Position numbers and translations under genes: made by a program
DNA from: Verrucomicrobiia bacterium
GTDB lineage: Bacteria > Omnitrophota > Omnitrophia > Omnitrophales > Aquincolibacteriaceae
Assembly (NCBI GenBank): GCA_035495615.1
Contig: DATJFP010000075.1
Span: 1 to 37,554, forward strand
Direction: 5' to 3'
Length of the DNA: 37,554 bases
The notes under the pieces: model-generated
Told to the model about the DNA's origin: nothing
What the model saw: the letters and a program-made list of their open reading frames with translations, nothing else
The model's database searches: none
Shown: piece by piece, positions 22,674 through 31,780 of the stretch
Numbering within the stretch: position 1 is the stretch's first letter
Layout of the letters: each line of letters opens with the position of its first letter

Positions 22674-23453
22674 TTACTTGGAGAAGCGGCGGCGAACCGC
22701 GAGGCCGGCAAGGCCGAGAGACAGAAGCAAAAACGTACCGGGTTCGGGACTTTCCGGAGGATCCTGAGTGATGCCGCCGGTCGTATCGGGACGAAGGATC
22801 TTGAAGATGGAGCCGCCGTGCCCGTCGGAGAGCAGGCCGTTCTGAGGAGCGGCCGCGGGATCGGCCTTCAAAAAATCGGCATTGAAGGCCGCATTGAAAT
22901 CGAGTTCCGTGGGCCTGCCCGAACCTTTGCCCGCGACTCCGTCTTTGGTATAAAAGTCGCCCCACACCGGCGCCTTGCTCGAAAAAAAGCTGTAGGTCAG
23001 GCCGTTGGAAACATCGATCTTGATGCCGTGAACGGTTCCGGGAATGTTCGGATTGGAATTGCCCTGCGTGCCCGGGCCGAAATTATCGATCGAGACTTTG
23101 TCGTCCACGCTGACGCCGTCCACCTGAAAATTCCAGAAGTCGGTGCGCTGGGCGGCCGCGGAAATTTCAAACACCGCGTGGCTGACGCCGCCTGCCGCGG
23201 CTCCTGTTCCCCATTTCGTGCCGTCTTCCGAGGAAAGCGTATAAATATATTCCCAATTGTCCGTGGAAACCTGGGTGATGTTCCATTCGATTTTGAAACC
23301 GTTATCGACCCAGGAGTGCCCCGTGGTCACGACCCCTTCAGGATTGCTGGCGGTCGTAAGGGAACCGGTATAGCTGAGAGCAAAAGCCGAGGCGGCATGA
23401 AGCCCGAGGGCTGCTGCCACAACCGTCAGGAGGAAGAAGGGGCGGATTTTCAT
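22674..23453 (-). CDS. PEP-CTERM protein, exported
   Basis: 259 residues with a signal peptide (cleavage near AFA, about residue 25). The last 24 residues are a clear PEP-CTERM signal: PEPGTFLLLSLG, hydrophobic segment, then RRRFSK. Exosortase (EpsH/XrtA type) recognises this, cuts it and releases or anchors the protein in the extracellular polymer. The body looks like a beta-rich domain of unknown role (NWEYIYTLSSEDGTKWG, HAVFEISAAAQ, WNFQVDGVSVDD). No exosortase gene is in the window, so it must be elsewhere. ATG preceded by AGAGAGG. Confidence 0.85.
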   Translation of the reverse strand: MKIRPFFLLTVVAAALGLHAASAFALSYTGSLTTASNPEGVVTTGHSWVDNGFKIEWNITQVSTDNWEYIYTLSSEDGTKWGTGAAAGGVSHAVFEISAAAQRTDFWNFQVDGVSVDDKVSIDNFGPGTQGNSNPNIPGTVHGIKIDVSNGLTYSFFSSKAPVWGDFYTKDGVAGKGSGRPTELDFNAAFNADFLKADPAAAPQNGLLSDGHGGSIFKILRPDTTGGITQDPPESPEPGTFLLLSLGLAGLAVRRRFSK

Positions 23454-23588: not shown

Positions 23589-24281
23589 TTAGACATTTGA
23601 CTTAAAATTAATACCTTCGGGGTAAGCTTGCCGGAGCAGCTCTTCGAAATCCCGAAGGGAGGAATCCAGAGCGCCGGCGCCGCGGGTCATGGCTTCGTCC
23701 GTGCCTGTGATCAGCACGCTTAAACGGTAATCCGGCGTATAAAGATAGAAGACCCGCTTCTCCGCCTGCCAGGCCCCGTCTTTCACGAATTTGCTGAGGA
23801 CCGTCACGCAGATGAGCTTACCGTTTTCCCGCAGGTCGAGCGTGGATTGGGACTGATGCTTGTCGCCGTAGTATGCATCGTAGACCTTGTCGATGTCTTT
23901 CATCTTGGCCAAAAACTCGTCGCGCGTCATGGCCAGGACGGCATCGCGGTCCATCGGGGCCTTGCCCGCGGAAACCGTGAGGCCCATCTCGGCAGATTGC
24001 CAGACGGCCTCGGCAAAAGGCGGCACGGCCGAATTCTTTTTCAGCGTCTCCACTTCCCCGGCCTCGAGCTTCCGGTAACCGCGGGGCAGCATCAAAACCT
24101 CCAGCTCGGAAGGCGCAGGCGCCTGGGAATCCTGCGGCGCGGTTTCGGAAACTTGTCCGGCCAGCCTTTCCTGACGCGTCTTTTTTTCTCTCAGGATGTT
24201 TTCCAGTTCCAGAGTATCTTCGGAAGGCGTGGCGCAGCCTCCCACGACGAGAATAAGGACAAGCAGCCAAACGGATTTCAT
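23589..24281 (-). CDS. Lipoprotein of unknown function
   Basis: 230 residues from the ATG at 24279-24281 behind AAAGGAACC; an upstream in-frame extension lacks signals. The signal sequence MKSVWLLVLILVVGGC ends at lipobox Cys16. A charged helix and a Gln/Pro-rich linker lead to a folded domain (LPRGYRKLEAGEVETLKKN, EMGLTVSAGKAPMD, TRDEFLAKMKDIDKVYDAYYG, RVFYLYTPDYRLSVLITG). It is the last gene of the run that starts at 28380. No family recognised. Confidence 0.65.
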   Translation of the reverse strand: MKSVWLLVLILVVGGCATPSEDTLELENILREKKTRQERLAGQVSETAPQDSQAPAPSELEVLMLPRGYRKLEAGEVETLKKNSAVPPFAEAVWQSAEMGLTVSAGKAPMDRDAVLAMTRDEFLAKMKDIDKVYDAYYGDKHQSQSTLDLRENGKLICVTVLSKFVKDGAWQAEKRVFYLYTPDYRLSVLITGTDEAMTRGAGALDSSLRDFEELLRQAYPEGINFKSNV

Positions 24282-24292
24282 CTTGGTTCCTT

Positions 24293-24547
24293 TCAGGGTT
24301 TCCGCAAAATAAAAAACAAAACCAAATAAACGAGCGCGAGCGCCGCGGCCCATAGCCGGGCAAGCCTGCAGGTCCAGGCCACGAAAAATTCTTTTTCCTT
24401 CCACCGCCCGGGAAGCCCGAGGGAGGCCCATTTCATGTTGCGGTCGTACGACTTTTCGGCATGGGACGGGGACATCATCCAAAGCGCCAGGGCCAGGAGC
24501 GGCAGCACGATGACGTGCAGCAGTTTCAGCTTGTCGTCCGGGCTCAT
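24293..24547 (-). CDS. Small two-helix membrane protein
   Basis: 84 residues. Helices at about 10-25 (LHVIVLPLLALALWMM) and 62-82 (LWAAALALVYLVLFFIL) flank a polar loop with YDRNMKWASLGLPGRW. The ATG overlaps the stop of the upstream glycosyltransferase gene (ATGA), and the lipoprotein gene follows 11 bases on, so this is a true operon member. Function unknown. Confidence 0.65.
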   Translation of the reverse strand: MSPDDKLKLLHVIVLPLLALALWMMSPSHAEKSYDRNMKWASLGLPGRWKEKEFFVAWTCRLARLWAAALALVYLVLFFILRKP

Positions 24548-26196
24548 GCGGCCTCTTTTCCTTTTTCCGCTTCCTCCCCTGCGCGGTAATAATACCGCAG
24601 GGAAGGGTGGTCCGTGACGGCCTTCAGGATCCCCGCTTCATCAGGCAAAGCGCCCTTCACATAATACCAGTAGAAACTGCTCTTGCCGGTCTCGATGATG
24701 GCGGCCAGAAGGTATCCTTTTTTTTCGGCATAAGCGTGCAGGGTCCGAACCATGACGTTCCATCTTCCGTACCAGTAACGGCCGCCCATGTCGTCGGCGG
24801 CCTCTCCTTTCACCGCGTGAAACATGATCAGGTCCGGCGAAAGGCGTTTGAGATAATCTTCGGTGAGGCCCCGGTGCGCGATGGTTTCATCATACAGCCC
24901 AAGCGCATCCACGGAAAGCCATTCCGAATAATACGGCAGGTATCCCGGCTCGGAAACCACCATGATTCGCCCGGGTTTAGCATACGGCTGCAAAGCCCGG
25001 CCGATCAGGATGCGGTCGGTATCGAGACCCTGGTCATAGGCCACGGCCGCCGACTTAGCGCTGCTGTCCAGCACCAGCAGGAACCCGCCCAGCAGCACGG
25101 CCGGAACCCAGGCTTTTTTGAGCGCGGGCCGCAGCGCCTCCGCGGCAAGAACCGCGAGAAAAAGAAGGCCGGGCACGACCGGCATTTGAAACCGGTGGCC
25201 GATATTCTGCGCCTGGAAAATTAAAAAATAAAGCAGCGGGAAAAAGCACAGCCCGAGAAACGCCAGGAGCGTTTTCCGGCGCAGCGGCGGCGGCATGCGG
25301 GCCGAGCCCAGCAGGATGAGCGCGAGATAAGGCGCCATGTAAACGGAGATCCGTCGCAGGTAGCCCGCGCCGGAAGAAAAGTTTTCGCGGAAAAGCCCTT
25401 TGCCGACCATGGACTTGGCGTAAAACGTGTTGGGCAGGAGATAGCCGAAGTACTGCCACCGCCACAGAAAGTAAACGAATCCCGGCATTACGAAAAAAAG
25501 CAGCGCGTGGCGGCAGAACTGTCCCCTTTCCTCCGGCAGAAGGACCGCGAGGCCGGCGGCAAAAAAGAACGCGTAAAACACCACGCCTTCCGGGCGCGTG
25601 AGCCCGAGCAAAAGCCCTGCCGCCGCCATGACCGCGGAAGCGGCCTCGCGCACGCGCGCAGACGGATCGTCCAGATGCATGAAGGAGATCACGACCGTCG
25701 TCATGAACAACGCGAAAAGCGGTGTCTCGAAGCCCGCCCGGATCTGCAGCGTAAGCGGCGAGAAGACGAGAATCCCGGCCGCGACAAAACCCGGGTGCCA
25801 GGAGACGGAAGCCAGGCGCGCGGTACCAAAAAAAACCGCGAGCCCGGCCGCGGCCAGGCAGAGACCGTTCAGGAGCGGCACCGAAATCTCAAATCCCATG
25901 CCCGCTTTGTAAAAAGCGGCAAGCAGCACCGTCCAAAGAAAAGAAGTCGCGCCTTCCACGGGGTCCATGCCGGGATTCCACGTGAGGCCGTGCCCTTCGG
26001 CGAGATTCCGGGCGAAACGCATGAGGATGTGCGCGTCTTCGGCAAGGTAGAGGTTGAGGGAAGAGAGGAACACGGCCAGCGTGGCCAGAAAAAGGCCGGT
26101 AAAAATCAAAGGCCGCGTCTTCTTACCGCACGAAGCCATGAGCAAAACAGCGCACGCATAGACGGCGAAATTTCTCAAGACGCTTCCGGCCGTCAT
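24544..26196 (-). CDS. GT-C glycosyltransferase-like polytopic membrane protein
   Basis: 550 residues from the ATG at 26194-26196, which shares its A with the upstream CBS stop (TGATG); an ATG at 26217 inside the CBS gene is the alternative. About 11 helices. The first loop has AEDAHILMRFARNLAEGHGLTWN then PVEGATSFLW, the pattern 'DayI..ryarnla.GhGl.wNpG..vEGyt.flw' seen in arabinofuranosyl- and mannosyltransferase-like GT-C proteins. The C-terminal region (residues about 390-540) is soluble and periplasmic. It should transfer a sugar from a polyprenyl-phosphate donor. Donor and acceptor unknown. Confidence 0.78.
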   Translation of the reverse strand: MTAGSVLRNFAVYACAVLLMASCGKKTRPLIFTGLFLATLAVFLSSLNLYLAEDAHILMRFARNLAEGHGLTWNPGMDPVEGATSFLWTVLLAAFYKAGMGFEISVPLLNGLCLAAAGLAVFFGTARLASVSWHPGFVAAGILVFSPLTLQIRAGFETPLFALFMTTVVISFMHLDDPSARVREAASAVMAAAGLLLGLTRPEGVVFYAFFFAAGLAVLLPEERGQFCRHALLFFVMPGFVYFLWRWQYFGYLLPNTFYAKSMVGKGLFRENFSSGAGYLRRISVYMAPYLALILLGSARMPPPLRRKTLLAFLGLCFFPLLYFLIFQAQNIGHRFQMPVVPGLLFLAVLAAEALRPALKKAWVPAVLLGGFLLVLDSSAKSAAVAYDQGLDTDRILIGRALQPYAKPGRIMVVSEPGYLPYYSEWLSVDALGLYDETIAHRGLTEDYLKRLSPDLIMFHAVKGEAADDMGGRYWYGRWNVMVRTLHAYAEKKGYLLAAIIETGKSSFYWYYVKGALPDEAGILKAVTDHPSLRYYYRAGEEAEKGKEAA

Positions 26197-26618
26197 CAAA
26201 GCTGCCGCGCCAGCCATTTTAAAATATCGGTTTCCGTGAGAATGCCGACCACCTTGCGGTCTTTGTCCACCACGGGAATGGCTCCGAACTTATTCCGCGC
26301 CATGATTTCGACGGCCTTGGCAAGCTCGTCGTCGGGACCGAGGGCGACCGGCTCCTGCTTCATGACTCTTTTCAAAACGAATTCGTCCAGGGCCTCGGGC
26401 GCGTAATAAATCCCTTCTTCGGTGAGCCGCGGCGAAAGCGTGCGGTAAAGGTCCCGCTGAGTCACGATCCCCTTCAGCAGGCCGCCCGAGTCGACGACCG
26501 GCAGGTGCCGGATCCCTTTCGTGCGAAACTTTTCCTCAACTTTGCTGAAAGGATCGTCTTCCTGCACCGTGATGACCGGCGACACCATGAGCTCTTTGAT
26601 TTTCATGCCGCGCATCAT
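26196..26618 (-). CDS. Paired CBS-domain protein
   Basis: 140 residues made of two CBS domains: KIKELMVSPVITVQEDDPFS with GIRHLPVVDSGGLLKGIVTQRD, then VMKQEPVALGPDDELAKAVE with KFGAIPVVDKDRKVVGILTETDIL. CBS pairs bind adenine nucleotides and regulate partner proteins, often channels and transporters. The start overlaps the stop of the channel-fusion gene (ATGA), so it is very likely a regulatory partner of that protein. Start could also be Met5 (MKIKEL). Confidence 0.9.
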   Translation of the reverse strand: MMRGMKIKELMVSPVITVQEDDPFSKVEEKFRTKGIRHLPVVDSGGLLKGIVTQRDLYRTLSPRLTEEGIYYAPEALDEFVLKRVMKQEPVALGPDDELAKAVEIMARNKFGAIPVVDKDRKVVGILTETDILKWLARQL

Positions 26619-27904
26619 GAAGCCCGCCCCACCGCGTTTTTTTTCAGGGCCTTGGTGGTGCCCATAAGGTCGTGAAGAAAATACACGACGGCGGCCGCCA
26701 CCATGATGGAAACGGTTTTGTCCGCGATCTCCACGAACATTTTTTCGGCAATGGCCGCGGCCGCCTGATGGCCCGTGAGGCTCAGAAAAAAAGAATAGAC
26801 GCGCATCGTGCCTTCGTAGGGCGGAAGATGCGCGAGGATGGTCGTGGCCTGCACCAGGATGCCGTTCAAAATGCCGGTTGCGATGCCCGCGGCGATCAGG
26901 TGGTAGGGCTTGTAGATCGTGACCCAGCCGCGCTGGTAAAAAAACCAGGTCGCGGCCGCGACGAGCAGGCTGCTGAACATCCAGACCCAGGAAGACCAGC
27001 CCCAGAGGGTGCCGGCGATCAAAAGATTGTACAGCACCGCGGCCGCGGCGCCCGGCCAGAAGCCGCCCAGCAGCACGGCCAGCGACGTGCCCGTGCCGTC
27101 GAAGAAAAACGGGAGTCGTAATTGCATCAGGAGAAGCGAAGCCGCGAAGTTCAACATCACCGCGGCCGCCACCAGGCCCACGGGCCGTTTTCGCAGCGGC
27201 AGGCTGATTTCGCGCACCGCGGCTTTCCTCGGCGGTTTGCCGGTTTCCTCTTCCTCTTCCCGGCCGGACTGGCTCGCGCTGATCAAGCGGCCGATGAGGA
27301 CGGCCACATACGCGACGCCGATGATGATTTCGATGATGACCAGCGAGCGCGCGAAAGGCAAAACCGCCACAATGTCGCCGAATCCGGCCGTGGAAAGCGT
27401 CACGAAGCTGAAATAAATAAACGCCGCGGGGCCGTACGGACCGGCATCATGCGAGAAACGGAAAGCCCCGGGGGACGCGGCTTCGATCAGCAGATAGAAA
27501 ATGCCGAACACCGTGCCGATCAGGACATAGGCGCAGACGGCGCCGTAGATTTCGTTCAGGCCCACGCGGCGCGCGGTCAGCACGCGTTCCAGCAGGGCGA
27601 ACAGCGTGTACATCATGAAAACAGCCGCACAGGCCCGCCCGAACATGTCGATCGCGGGGCTGTTCAGGATGATGTTGCTCCACTGGCAGACCAGGATGGG
27701 CGTAATCAGCAGCATGCCGAGGGCGACGTAGCGCGCGTCGTAACTGATGGCGTAAACGCCCGAGAGCAGGACCGTGGTGTAGAGGATGATGAAGACGACG
27801 CTCGTCACACGCGACGCCTCGAAGAACGGGTAGACGAGGATAAGGAGCAGCAGCGAGACGAGAAACGTCAGCGATTTGTTTTGTTTGAATTGCGCAAGCA
27901 GCAT
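26615..27904 (-). CDS. Potassium-channel-like domain fused to an ECF-like membrane domain
   Basis: 429 residues from the ATG at 27902-27904 (a GTG lies just before it). Residues about 1-210 hold several helices and a two-helix pore with the selectivity-filter segment FVTLSTAGFGDIVAV, an Ion_trans_2-type K+ channel (TxxTxGFGD). After a charged linker (GREEEEETGKPPRK) come some six further helices with FFFDGTGTSLAVLLGGFWPG and AAVLYNLLIAG, then TGILNGILV. These resemble substrate-binding (S) components of ECF transporters. The two halves are in one uninterrupted frame. A CBS protein is co-translated downstream. The ECF link is by pattern only. Confidence 0.75.
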   Translation of the reverse strand: MLLAQFKQNKSLTFLVSLLLLILVYPFFEASRVTSVVFIILYTTVLLSGVYAISYDARYVALGMLLITPILVCQWSNIILNSPAIDMFGRACAAVFMMYTLFALLERVLTARRVGLNEIYGAVCAYVLIGTVFGIFYLLIEAASPGAFRFSHDAGPYGPAAFIYFSFVTLSTAGFGDIVAVLPFARSLVIIEIIIGVAYVAVLIGRLISASQSGREEEEETGKPPRKAAVREISLPLRKRPVGLVAAAVMLNFAASLLLMQLRLPFFFDGTGTSLAVLLGGFWPGAAAAVLYNLLIAGTLWGWSSWVWMFSSLLVAAATWFFYQRGWVTIYKPYHLIAAGIATGILNGILVQATTILAHLPPYEGTMRVYSFFLSLTGHQAAAAIAEKMFVEIADKTVSIMVAAAVVYFLHDLMGTTKALKKNAVGRAS

Positions 27905-27939
27905 CACGAAATCCCGAGCGGTTTGCGAAGACTATGGAA

Positions 27940-28380
27940 CTATTTCAGGGTTTTGGCAAGCGCATTCAGCATGAGAGACCAGGCGGCCTCGACGCGCTCT
28001 TTGAAATGCGCCCAGTCGGGATGCAGCTCGTGCGTCAGCGTCAGCACGCATCCGTCCCCGGCGGGATCGATTTTCACCATGACGACGCTGCGCGCCGGGC
28101 CGTCCTGGCGTACGCCCCAGGTAAAAGCCAGGCGCTTTGGCGGCTCGATCACCAGGTATTCGCCGACATGGTCAACTTCATCGCCGTCGCGGCGCACGAC
28201 AAAGGAAAATCCCCCGCCGACGCGAGGGTCCAGGCCCAGGCTCACGATTTCTTCGTCCCGCACCTCCGGGCCGAACATCCAGTGCCCGATGGAATTCGTG
28301 TCCAGCCACGCATTAAAAACGCGCAGCGGGGAAACGGGATATTCGCGCACGACCGTGGCTTTGATGTTGGGAGAATCCAT
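27940..28380 (-). CDS. SRPBCC/AHSA1-family protein
   Basis: 146 residues covering the whole Bet v 1-like fold. Family blocks are REYPVSPLRVFNAWLDTNSIGHWMF, then DPRVGGGFSF, then HVGEYLVIEPPKRLAFTWG and a C-terminal helix (HFKERVEAAWSLMLNALAKTL). Members bind hydrophobic ligands or act as Hsp90 co-chaperone-like proteins. Cytosolic. The channel-fusion gene follows after about 35 bases on the same strand. No ribosome site precedes the ATG. Confidence 0.88.
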   Translation of the reverse strand: MDSPNIKATVVREYPVSPLRVFNAWLDTNSIGHWMFGPEVRDEEIVSLGLDPRVGGGFSFVVRRDGDEVDHVGEYLVIEPPKRLAFTWGVRQDGPARSVVMVKIDPAGDGCVLTLTHELHPDWAHFKERVEAAWSLMLNALAKTLK

Positions 28381-28543: not shown

Positions 28544-31500
28544 TTAGGAGAGGGTCACCTGATGGATCTGGATGTTGGTGTCGCCGTTCTCGGACGCCTT
28601 GTAGAGATCATTGATCCAAAGCAGCTTGATCGAATGTGTGCCCGCGCTCAGCCCCCTGAGCTGAAACTGTCCCTGCTGGTAATCCAGGTCGCTCGCCGGC
28701 ACCGACATTGTCCCCACCTTCACGTTATCGACATACACATCGAGATTAAAATTCTTGTAGCCCGTGGGCAAATGCCAGCCGGGATTTGAAAAGTTTTTGG
28801 CCGACACTTTCAGCGTGTAATCTCCGGCCGTGTTCGTGAGCGCTCGATAAACGAGATATTTGGAGTTTGAGCTCGCCATCCAGTCCGTGCCGATCCTGGT
28901 CCATCCCGAGGACGCAGAAATGACCGAAAGCTCGGTTTGCGCGGGAGCCGCCGCGGTCGTGAAAAAGTTGTCCGAGGAAACCACGCGATTGCCCGACGCA
29001 TCTTGTGAGATCACCCGGTAAAGATAACGCGTCGCGGGCTGAAGGCCGGTCACGGCGACTTGATGCGCGGTCACAAGCGCCGGATCAAGCGCTGTCTGCT
29101 GGCAACTGGTCCCATTCTCGGCGCACCACTCCACCTGGCTTGTCGCAGGCTCGTCCGTGTCCCATTTCAAGGATACGGAGTTTGTCGTGATGTTCGCCGC
29201 CGTCGTGTTGCTCACCGCCGGAGGCGTCGTGTCCTGCGGAGGAAGCGTCGTGAAAAAGTTGTCCGAGGAAACCACGCGATTGCCCGACGCATCTTGTGAG
29301 ATCACCCGATAAAGATAACGCGTCGCGGGCTGAAGGCCGGTCACGGCCACATCATGCGCGGTCTTGAGCGCCGGATCAAGCGTTGTCTGCTGACAATTGG
29401 TCCCATTCTCGGCGCACCACTCCACCTGGCTTGTCGCAGGCTCGTCCGTGTCCCATTTCAAGGATACGGAGTTTGTCGTGATGTTCGCCGCCGTCGTGTT
29501 GCTCACCGCCGGAGGCGTCGTGTCTTGAGGCGGAAGGACGACATTATTCGAGACGAGCAGGACCTGGTGGATCTGGAGGTTGGTGTCGCCGTTCTCGGAC
29601 GCCTTGTAGAGATCGTTGATCCACAGCAGCTTGATCGAATGCGTGCCCAGGCTCAGCCCTTTGAGCTGAAACTGTCCCTGCTGGTAATCCAGGTCGCTCG
29701 CCGGCACCGACATCGTCCCCACCTTCACGTTGTCGACATACACATCGAGATTAAAATTCTTGTAGCCGGTGGGCAGATGCCAGCCGGCACTCGAAAAGTT
29801 TTTGGCCGACACTTTCAGCGTGTAATCGCCTGCCTCATCCACAGGCGCACGGTAAATGAGATATTTGGAGTTGGAACTCGCCATCCAGTCCGTGCCTATC
29901 CTTGTCCATCCGGAGGACGCGGAAATAACCGAAAGCTCGATTTGCGCGGGCGGTGCCGCGGTCGTAAAAAAGCCGTCCGGGGAAACCACGCGGTTGCCCG
30001 TATCATCTTGGGAGATGACGCGGTAAAGGTAACGGGTCGAGGGCTGAAGGCCGTTGACAGCCACGTCATGCGCGGTCTTGAGCGCCGAATCAAACGTCGT
30101 CTGCTGGCAATTCGTGCCGTCTTGGGCGCACCATTCTACCTGGCTTGTCGCAGGCTTGTCGGTGTCCCATTTCAAAGACGCGGAACTTGAAGTAATGTTC
30201 GCCGCCACGGCATTGCTGATCACCGGAGGCGCTGCGGGGTTGGGATGCTCGACCACATGGCCGTCGGGGTAGCGCTCGAAATGCAGGTGCACGCCGTCGG
30301 GATAATATTCGAAGGTTTTCTGCCACACGCCGCCGGCATCGTAATAAATCTGCTCGAACCGGCTGCTCGTGCCCGGCCAGTACGTGAGGTCCGCATAGCT
30401 TCCGTCCGGGAACTTCTTGCGCGAAATCTTTCCGGTGAGATCGTACTCATACCGCACCGCGCCGTCCGTGTCGGCCAGGGCAAGCCAGCGCGTCTTGATT
30501 TCGCCGGTCGTGTAGTAATCCGTGGAAACCGCGGCAAAAGCGTCCACGAGCCCCGCGCCGAACGTATCGTCATAGCCCGGAGCGCCGAGGTCGAGCGACG
30601 AATACTTCAGGCGGCGCGTGACGTCGTCGTAGGTGAGCGTGGGATCGAAGGACCGCATGAGCGCCACGACGCCCGCCACCATGGGCGAGGCCATGGAAGT
30701 GCCCTGCAGCGCCTGGTACTGGTTGCCGGGCTTGAGCGACAGGATGTTGGTGCCGGGCGCGGAAAGGTCCAGGTTCGGCCCGTGGTTGGAAAAGCTGGCC
30801 AGCGTGTTGCTGGAAGTCGTCGCGCCCACGGAGATCACGTTGTCGAGCGACGCGGGAAGGAATTGGCTGACCGGCTGGCCGTTATTGCCCGCGGCCGCCA
30901 CAATCACCGAGCCCTTGCCGATCGCGTAATTGATCATGTCCTGGAATTCCTGGATGCCCTCGGCGGTCATCAGGCTCCTCAGGATGCCGAGCGACATGTT
31001 GATGACCTGCGCGCCCAGGTCCGCGGCGTATTTGATGCCGGCGATCACGTCCGAAATAAATCCCTGGCCGTCGGCGCCGAGCACGCGCACGGGAAGAATC
31101 TTGGCGTTGGGCGCGATGCCCGCGATGCCGATCGCGTTGTCCGCGGCCGCGCCGATGATGCCGGCGACGTGGGTGCCGTGATTGTTGAGATCCGTCGGCG
31201 CCGCGTCGTCGTCCACGAAATCCCATCCGTTCACGTCGTCGACAAAGCCGTTGCCGTCGTCGTCCACCCCGGGAGCGCCGAAATATTCCAGCGCATTCTT
31301 GAAGACGTTTTGCGCGATGTCCTGATGCGCCATGTCGAGGCCGGAATCCACGACCGCCACGGTCACGTTGTCGCCCCGCGTGAACGACCAGGCCTCTTCA
31401 GCGCGCACGCGCGGATGCCACCACATGCCGGCATTCGCGTAAAGAGGATCGTTGCTTTGGGCATCCACTTTGGGAGCATCTTTGGCCGCGGAAGCCGGAG

Positions 31501-31780
31501 AAAGCGTTTTGTTTTCCAGGAAGCTGGAGAACGGGTCCCCCATCACGGGATCGAGGAATTGCAGGGGCTGTTCCGCCTGGTCCGGACTGATTTGTTTGAG
31601 TTCGTCGGGAGAAATCGGGTGGCCCAGGGCGTCCGAGGGAACGTTGGCATTTTGCGCGAAGGCCACGGGAATACCGGAAATGGCAAGGACGGCGCAAAGG
31701 AAAAGAATGGACAAACGATCGCGGAAACTGCGTTTAGGGGAGATCCCACAAAACGAAACAGTCCGTTTTTCTTCGATCAC
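28544..31780 (-). CDS. Secreted subtilisin-like protease with Fn3 and carbohydrate-binding-like modules
   Basis: 1078 residues, GTG start behind GAAGAGG. Signal peptide cleavage near FAQ (43). The S8 domain has Asp145 (VDSGLD), His201 (NHGTHVAG), oxyanion Asn299 and Ser362 (GTSMASP), with the Ca-binding-like DDDGNGFVDD, so it should be active. Residues 424-515 form a Tyr/Asp-rich segment (EIKTRWL, YEYDLTGKISRKKFPDGS). Then come Fn3-1 (about 516-605), a beta-sandwich like a carbohydrate-binding module (about 607-740), Fn3-2 and Fn3-3 (about 748-942) and a second such module to the end. Fn3 units carry WDTDEPATSQVEWC. It probably acts on or near the cell surface. Confidence 0.9.
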   Translation of the reverse strand: MIEEKRTVSFCGISPKRSFRDRLSILFLCAVLAISGIPVAFAQNANVPSDALGHPISPDELKQISPDQAEQPLQFLDPVMGDPFSSFLENKTLSPASAAKDAPKVDAQSNDPLYANAGMWWHPRVRAEEAWSFTRGDNVTVAVVDSGLDMAHQDIAQNVFKNALEYFGAPGVDDDGNGFVDDVNGWDFVDDDAAPTDLNNHGTHVAGIIGAAADNAIGIAGIAPNAKILPVRVLGADGQGFISDVIAGIKYAADLGAQVINMSLGILRSLMTAEGIQEFQDMINYAIGKGSVIVAAAGNNGQPVSQFLPASLDNVISVGATTSSNTLASFSNHGPNLDLSAPGTNILSLKPGNQYQALQGTSMASPMVAGVVALMRSFDPTLTYDDVTRRLKYSSLDLGAPGYDDTFGAGLVDAFAAVSTDYYTTGEIKTRWLALADTDGAVRYEYDLTGKISRKKFPDGSYADLTYWPGTSSRFEQIYYDAGGVWQKTFEYYPDGVHLHFERYPDGHVVEHPNPAAPPVISNAVAANITSSSASLKWDTDKPATSQVEWCAQDGTNCQQTTFDSALKTAHDVAVNGLQPSTRYLYRVISQDDTGNRVVSPDGFFTTAAPPAQIELSVISASSGWTRIGTDWMASSNSKYLIYRAPVDEAGDYTLKVSAKNFSSAGWHLPTGYKNFNLDVYVDNVKVGTMSVPASDLDYQQGQFQLKGLSLGTHSIKLLWINDLYKASENGDTNLQIHQVLLVSNNVVLPPQDTTPPAVSNTTAANITTNSVSLKWDTDEPATSQVEWCAENGTNCQQTTLDPALKTAHDVAVTGLQPATRYLYRVISQDASGNRVVSSDNFFTTLPPQDTTPPAVSNTTAANITTNSVSLKWDTDEPATSQVEWCAENGTSCQQTALDPALVTAHQVAVTGLQPATRYLYRVISQDASGNRVVSSDNFFTTAAAPAQTELSVISASSGWTRIGTDWMASSNSKYLVYRALTNTAGDYTLKVSAKNFSNPGWHLPTGYKNFNLDVYVDNVKVGTMSVPASDLDYQQGQFQLRGLSAGTHSIKLLWINDLYKASENGDTNIQIHQVTLS
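28559..28955 (-). repeat. C-terminal binding module, copy 2
   Basis: This coding stretch repeats at 29564-29960, exactly 1005 bases away, with high DNA identity (shared blocks include the segment coding for YVDNVKVGTMSVPASDLDYQ). The encoded ELSVISASSGWTRIGTDW start and HSIKLLWINDLYKASENGD end look like a CBM6/35-type beta-sandwich. Confidence 0.85.
28956..29537 (-). repeat. Tandem 291-bp repeat coding for two Fn3 modules
   Basis: Bases 28956-29246 and 29247-29537 are two head-to-tail copies of 291 bases (97 codons) in the same frame, nearly identical at DNA level with only a dozen or so visible differences, clustered in the middle. Such closeness points to recent duplication or gene conversion and to possible copy-number change. 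Confidence 0.9.
29564..30240 (-). repeat. Binding module copy 1 plus the oldest Fn3 copy
   Basis: 29564-29960 matches 28559-28955, and 29961 to about 30240 matches 28956-29246, both at an offset of 1005 bases. The unit [Fn3 + binding module] was therefore duplicated as a block. This Fn3 copy has diverged more than the tandem pair at 28956-29537, so the tandem duplication came later. Confidence 0.85.

Follow-up and report, generated by a model that had tools for sequence, protein, structure and literature searches.

The S-components of ECF importers and their receptor relatives have been linked only recently (PMC11109136). In the 5TMR-LYT sensor histidine kinases and the NRAMP-5TMR proteins (PF07694), the S-component fold has taken on the role of a receptor domain, and MreD has this fold without transport; certain solitary S-components need no ECF module for transport, and some BioY and BtuM proteins were reported to be such motor-less carriers (PMC11109136). 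According to the same survey, no integral membrane transporter other than NRAMP is found in fusion with the 5TMR fold (PMC11109136). In NRAMP-5TMR, the S-fold domain lies C-terminal to the ion transporter (PMC11109136), and the same order is found in the protein described here, in which an S-component-like domain follows a K+-channel-type pore. No published channel/S-component fusion was found in the open-access literature searched, and the NRAMP-5TMR fusion is the closest printed precedent. The protein is encoded in a 37,554-nucleotide stretch of DNA (hereafter the window) from a member of the Omnitrophota, a little-studied phylum.

The fusion protein and its channel half

As proposed in a preliminary description of this DNA, a single frame of 430 codons on the minus strand (26615-27907) joins a channel pore to a second membrane domain, and the pore filter claimed for it is present as TAGFGD. 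The start codon is either GTG at 27907 or ATG at 27904. The protein is laid out as follows:

26615..27907, minus strand: fusion protein of 430 aa, composed of a channel half and an S-component-like half; stop codon TGA at 26615-26617
27278..27907, minus strand: channel half (residues 1-210), four membrane helices, then an outer helix, a pore loop and an inner helix
27374..27391, minus strand: selectivity filter T-A-G-F-G-D (residues 173-178), placed by alignment
27182..27277, minus strand: charged linker (residues 211-242) running from the inner helix to S-component helix 1, placed by hydropathy and charge count
26675..27181, minus strand: S-component-like domain (residues 243-411), placed by NF045596, hhalign, its controls and a joint alignment

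Full-length homologs were found in G011 and G022, two Candidatus Omnitrophica MAGs of the same family as the window (42-43% identity), and in G311, from a different order, where the protein has 575 aa and 43% identity (locus L024 on contig G311:C75, 6462-8186, minus strand). In total, the fusion occurs in four Omnitrophota genomes from two orders. It is real, and neither a chance frame nor an assembly artefact, because collinear versions with 41-44% identity exist in three further genomes; its expected retention in relatives was thereby borne out.

The Pfam model Ion_trans_2 (PF07885) matched residues 154-210 of the window protein (E=2e-9; 37.6 bits against a gathering score of 22.5) and scored 27.4 and 28.3 bits in the relatives at loci L013 and L014 (G011 and G022) and 22.9 bits in G311. 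Solved K+ channels in the PDB were also matched by the channel half in a phmmer search. The pore of the preliminary description therefore stands, but not its restriction to two helices: four hydrophobic helices (residues 13-110) precede the outer helix, pore loop and inner helix (residues 123-210), making a six-helix channel half. No arginine ladder was seen in the fourth helix (ACAAVFMMYTLFALLERVL), and since this helix has a single Arg, it is not a voltage sensor. Pore loop, filter and inner helix are common to the fusion and to the six-helix Ion_trans_2 (PF07885) channels of bacteria, in which the C-terminal place is usually taken by an RCK domain or a CNBD, whereas in the fusion it is taken by a membrane domain. 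Stand-alone relatives of this type, of about 240 aa, occur in Omnitrophota: homologs of the channel half were found as open frames in G016 (241 aa, 37% identity) and G006 (242 aa, 33% identity). The linker that follows the inner helix is about 30 residues long and charged (9 K/R and 6 D/E in residues 207-242), and is predicted to be cytosolic.

When the window protein was compared with the other fusions, identity was 45-50% in the S-domain and 42-53% in the pore. In the alignment, the filter (T-x-G-[YF]-G) is kept as TAGFGD in the window, G011 and G022 and is degenerate in G311 (STGFSG), yet the S-component-like domain of G311 is intact. The G311 protein also carries an N-terminal STAS domain, detected at E=1.7e-4, just under the Pfam cut-off. 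Since the G311 filter has degenerated (TGFSG), K+ conduction is probably not universal among the fusions, and with the filter lost and the S-domain kept, the function that they share may not be K+ conduction; in the G311 lineage, a receptor function may have outlived conduction. A receptor or scaffold, whose pore half would oligomerise while soluble partners (STAS in G311, the CBS protein in the window) receive the signal, would fit this combination, and both the fused STAS domain and the overlap of the CBS gene with the fusion gene in the window speak for it. Nevertheless, we place this alternative on the unlikely side, because T-A-G-F-G-D is kept in three of the four members and, in two of the three comparisons with the window protein, no other part is as well conserved as the pore region (52-53%).

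The S-like domain was never found alone in the 384 Omnitrophota genomes sampled, nor in searches of 47 genomes of the window's order and 81 of G311's order. Wider genome scans by short peptide patterns returned no relatives at first and, in a second scan, only the G022 and G011 loci; these short-pattern scans do not establish the distribution beyond Omnitrophota, nor do they show absence there. A viral scan found no relatives, and in a plasmid search with the G311 fusion every match was confined to the channel half and fell short of 80% coverage of the query. A profile-search match in G213 was read as an RND-type efflux protein and discarded as a false positive.

Homology of the C-terminal membrane domain

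The only consistent curated match of the S-like domain was the NCBIfam family ECF_S_CD3073 (NF045596), which spanned the whole domain with E-values of 5.7e-5 in the window, 0.016 in G022, 0.023 in G011 and 2.9e-7 in G311, at scores (22.9 bits in the window, 30.3 bits in G311) far below the curated equivalog cut-off of 180 bits. A reference set of 11 plasmid ECF-S proteins was gathered by starting from the one plasmid protein that the window domain matched, weakly (E=0.09), and that is annotated as an ECF transporter S component. This starting protein matches PF12822 and CD3073 and, like several other references, is encoded beside EcfT genes. In hhalign, the four fusion S-domains (alignment A7) matched the 11 references (alignment A6) at 98.4% (E=7.3e-15, 170 columns), and the bacterial references alone at 97.4%. 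Controls gave 5.9% (reversed), at most 1.9% (column-shuffled), 0.1% (channel half) and at most 1.9% for 22 hydrophobic reading frames from neighbouring loci, which are not all necessarily genes.

In the joint alignment, the helix-1 Asn was present in 15/15 sequences, and the LP...D..GT pattern and the DK pair were common to both sets; the conserved positions of the fusion domain are N253, L265-P266, D270, G273-T274, L276 and D396-K397. The order of segments (helix-1 Asn, LPxFxDxxGT, GW, DK) is that of CD3073-like ECF S-components, from which the fusion domain differs in being joined to a channel and encoded in a genome without detectable EcfT. The FGGxTGxGT and NP segments of the references are replaced, and the fusion domain has conserved W and Y residues of its own (W302, W307, W309, Y371). 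Taken together, family match and profile comparison show that the second membrane domain is homologous to the S-components of ECF importers, and the ECF-S likeness noted in the preliminary description is upheld at 98.4% against controls of at most 6%.

Of the two checks suggested for this half, profile comparison thus returned an ECF-S match, but structure prediction failed: the AF2 models of the full protein and the C-terminal half, made from an alignment of only three sequences with G311 left out, were of low confidence (pLDDT 43-57). Foldseek with the low-confidence model of the C-terminal half gave no match below 0.001, and PDB sequences gave none below 0.9 against the C-terminal profile. 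Because the models were unusable, we infer the S-component fold of the domain from sequence profiles.

Other families of this fold were also compared. PF07694 (5TMR-LYT) gave no match up to E=10 and the NXR motif between helices 1 and 2 is absent from the fusions, which also differ from 5TMR-LYT proteins in having a K+-channel pore as partner and no kinase. A C-terminal half that is only a passive accessory or assembly domain, or an MreD-like membrane scaffold that binds no ligand, has a precedent in MreD, which combines the fold with lack of transport (PMC11109136). However, the profile match was to ECF-S and not to E. coli MreD or E. coli PyrS/YpdA (0.6% in hhalign), weak negatives both, as each was a single sequence, and polar and aromatic residues are conserved in a way that hints at a site; we regard a passive domain as quite improbable.

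EcfT (CbiQ, PF02361) was not found in the window genome (G000), G011, G022 or G311, which are 84-96% complete, whereas the same search found it in 41 of 145 sampled Omnitrophota. On this contrast, the fusion probably does not belong to an ECF importer in these genomes. ECF transport is patchy across the phylum. EcfT was also absent from the window-family genomes among those listed, and its absence is therefore a trait of the lineage and not specific to the genomes that bear the fusion. At the helix-1 contact, the residue two before the shared Asn (N-2) is G/S/T in 10 of the 11 references and M/L in all four fusions (Fisher p 0.004, a descriptive value only, the sequences being related). Bulky residues at the EcfT contact were reported for receptors and MreD of the S-fold by Partipilo and Slotboom (PMC11109136). 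A strict AXXXA at this site is missing from fusions and ECF-S references alike, hence it is a weak discriminator.

An S-domain without its motor could also be a solitary micronutrient carrier, the channel half providing K+ counter-flow or an anchor. Transport without an ECF module is on record for some S-components (PMC11109136), and the L-P-x-F-x-D-x-x-G-T segment is common to fusions and true S-components. Against such a carrier, which we consider unlikely, stand the replaced FGGxTGxGT segment, the conserved residues peculiar to the fusions (W302, W307, W309 and Y371) and the pore itself, since a selective pore is no obvious partner for a vitamin carrier.

Genes around the fusion

The genes next to the fusion in the window are:

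27940..28380, minus strand: AHSA1/SRPBCC (START-like) gene, Pfam AHSA1 E=4.2e-22, 32 bp upstream of the fusion
26196..26618, minus strand: protein of 140 aa with two CBS domains, Pfam CBS E=4.7e-34, its start overlapping the fusion stop
24544..26217, minus strand: multi-helix membrane protein read as a GT-C glycosyltransferase, overlapping the CBS gene and co-directional with it
24293..24547, minus strand: small membrane protein of 84 aa, with an ATGA overlap with the putative glycosyltransferase gene
23589..24281, minus strand: lipoprotein (MKSVWLLVLILVVGGCATP...), in-frame start at about 24281

The preliminary description was accurate on the arrangement of this cluster: the CBS gene overlaps the fusion stop by ATGA (26615-26618), and the downstream genes are co-directional and overlapping or nearly so. 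It had also proposed an ion- or ligand-gated envelope-modification unit formed with the glycosyltransferase, the small membrane protein and the lipoprotein. The tight co-directional overlap in the window genome favours such a unit, and gating by an ion or ligand is plausible; the envelope-modification part is not supported, as the partners are not conserved. None of them was found at the three other fusion loci, the small membrane protein and the lipoprotein included, and the putative glycosyltransferase has no counterpart there or in 26 other genomes of the family, which makes the unit very improbable. The GT-C label itself found no database support, 24544-26217 having no Pfam, NCBIfam or PDB-sequence match above cut-off, and remains a reading of the sequence. 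Only two distant paralogs (28-30% identity) were found, both in its own genome, and the gene is probably outside the conserved unit. These paralogs lie side by side on the same strand (G000:C17:32421-35307).

The CBS gene adjoins the fusion in the window only. A CBS gene is found some 2.3 kb downstream of the fusion in G311 (L024 3741-4205), and none was seen near it in G011 or G022. Also downstream of the G311 fusion is a gene for a TMEM175-type K+ channel (L024 5385-5969), and in G011 and G022 (genus g12) the fusion gene adjoins a DEAD-box helicase gene.

The AHSA1/SRPBCC gene had not been mentioned before. In G311, an AHSA1-family gene (L024 8161-8607, E=1.9e-30) lies directly upstream and overlaps the fusion. 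Because only 3 and 5 AHSA1 matches exist in the whole window and G311 genomes, respectively, this recurrence is unlikely to be due to chance, a comparison made after seeing the data. The two genes gave no BLAST match at 1e-4 and were not retained as orthologs; the recurrence is at the family level only.

Further out in the window, 28544-31780 (minus strand) encodes a subtilase of 1078 aa that contains three fn3-like repeats and two CBM60-like modules and shows internal self-repetition with few changes, and the product of 22674-23453 (minus strand) is a secreted protein that carries a PEP-CTERM sorting motif (Pfam E=8e-6). Defence-system profiles gave no match.

Proposed gating and comparison with known channels

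We give an about even chance to the fusion being a ligand-regulated cation channel, probably for K+. An S-domain without ECF motor would be joined to the gate-bearing inner helix of a six-helix pore of the tetrameric type, at the position of the RCK or cyclic-nucleotide domains of other K+ channels. A small extracellular ligand would bind the S-domain, and the cytosolic linker would carry the rearrangement of this domain on to the inner helix, changing the open probability. Judging by topology, the inner helix would occupy the place of helix H0 in 5TMR kinases, with which the fusion is predicted to share an out-to-in helix, a cytosolic loop and a six-helix core. The CBS protein of the window genome would probably add a nucleotide-dependent layer of control, the weakest step of the scheme.

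Pore homology, the filter, S-component homology, the conserved fusion, an S-domain never found separately in the genomes sampled and the lack of detectable EcfT in the four genomes all support the ligand-regulated channel; we also count for it that the S-domain is conserved as well as the pore and that N-2 is bulky in all four fusions, as reported for S-fold receptors. Against it are the varying neighbour genes, the G311 filter and the fact that EcfT absence is lineage-wide. More tentatively, and with somewhat less than an even chance, the fusions may represent a natural class of channels gated by an in-membrane nutrient receptor derived from ECF importers, variants of which add STAS or pair with CBS.

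A K+-channel pore joined to an S-component domain would add an electrical output to the S-fold, and the fusion offers a test of whether the conformational change of an S-component drives an effector, as the output would be a current. The ligand-binding module of GluR0 of Synechocystis is of binding-protein origin. As proposed for the fusion, a nutrient-binding module from transport is coupled there to a K+-type filter, TXVGYG (PMC3483616), but GluR0 differs in that this module is a soluble periplasmic-binding-protein-like domain and the pore topology is inverted. That Kir6.2 is regulated by SUR, a large membrane protein, is described as an exception among channels (PMC8688152). In this KATP pair, and in engineered GPCR-channel fusions (PMC8688152), a K+ pore is under the control of a membrane protein that descends from receptors or transporters, as we propose here. 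However, SUR is an ABC protein in its own right, and in the man-made fusions the GPCR is placed N-terminally, whereas the ECF-S domain is fused naturally and C-terminally to its channel; if our reading is true, the Omnitrophota protein would be a natural counterpart to the man-made receptor-channel fusions.
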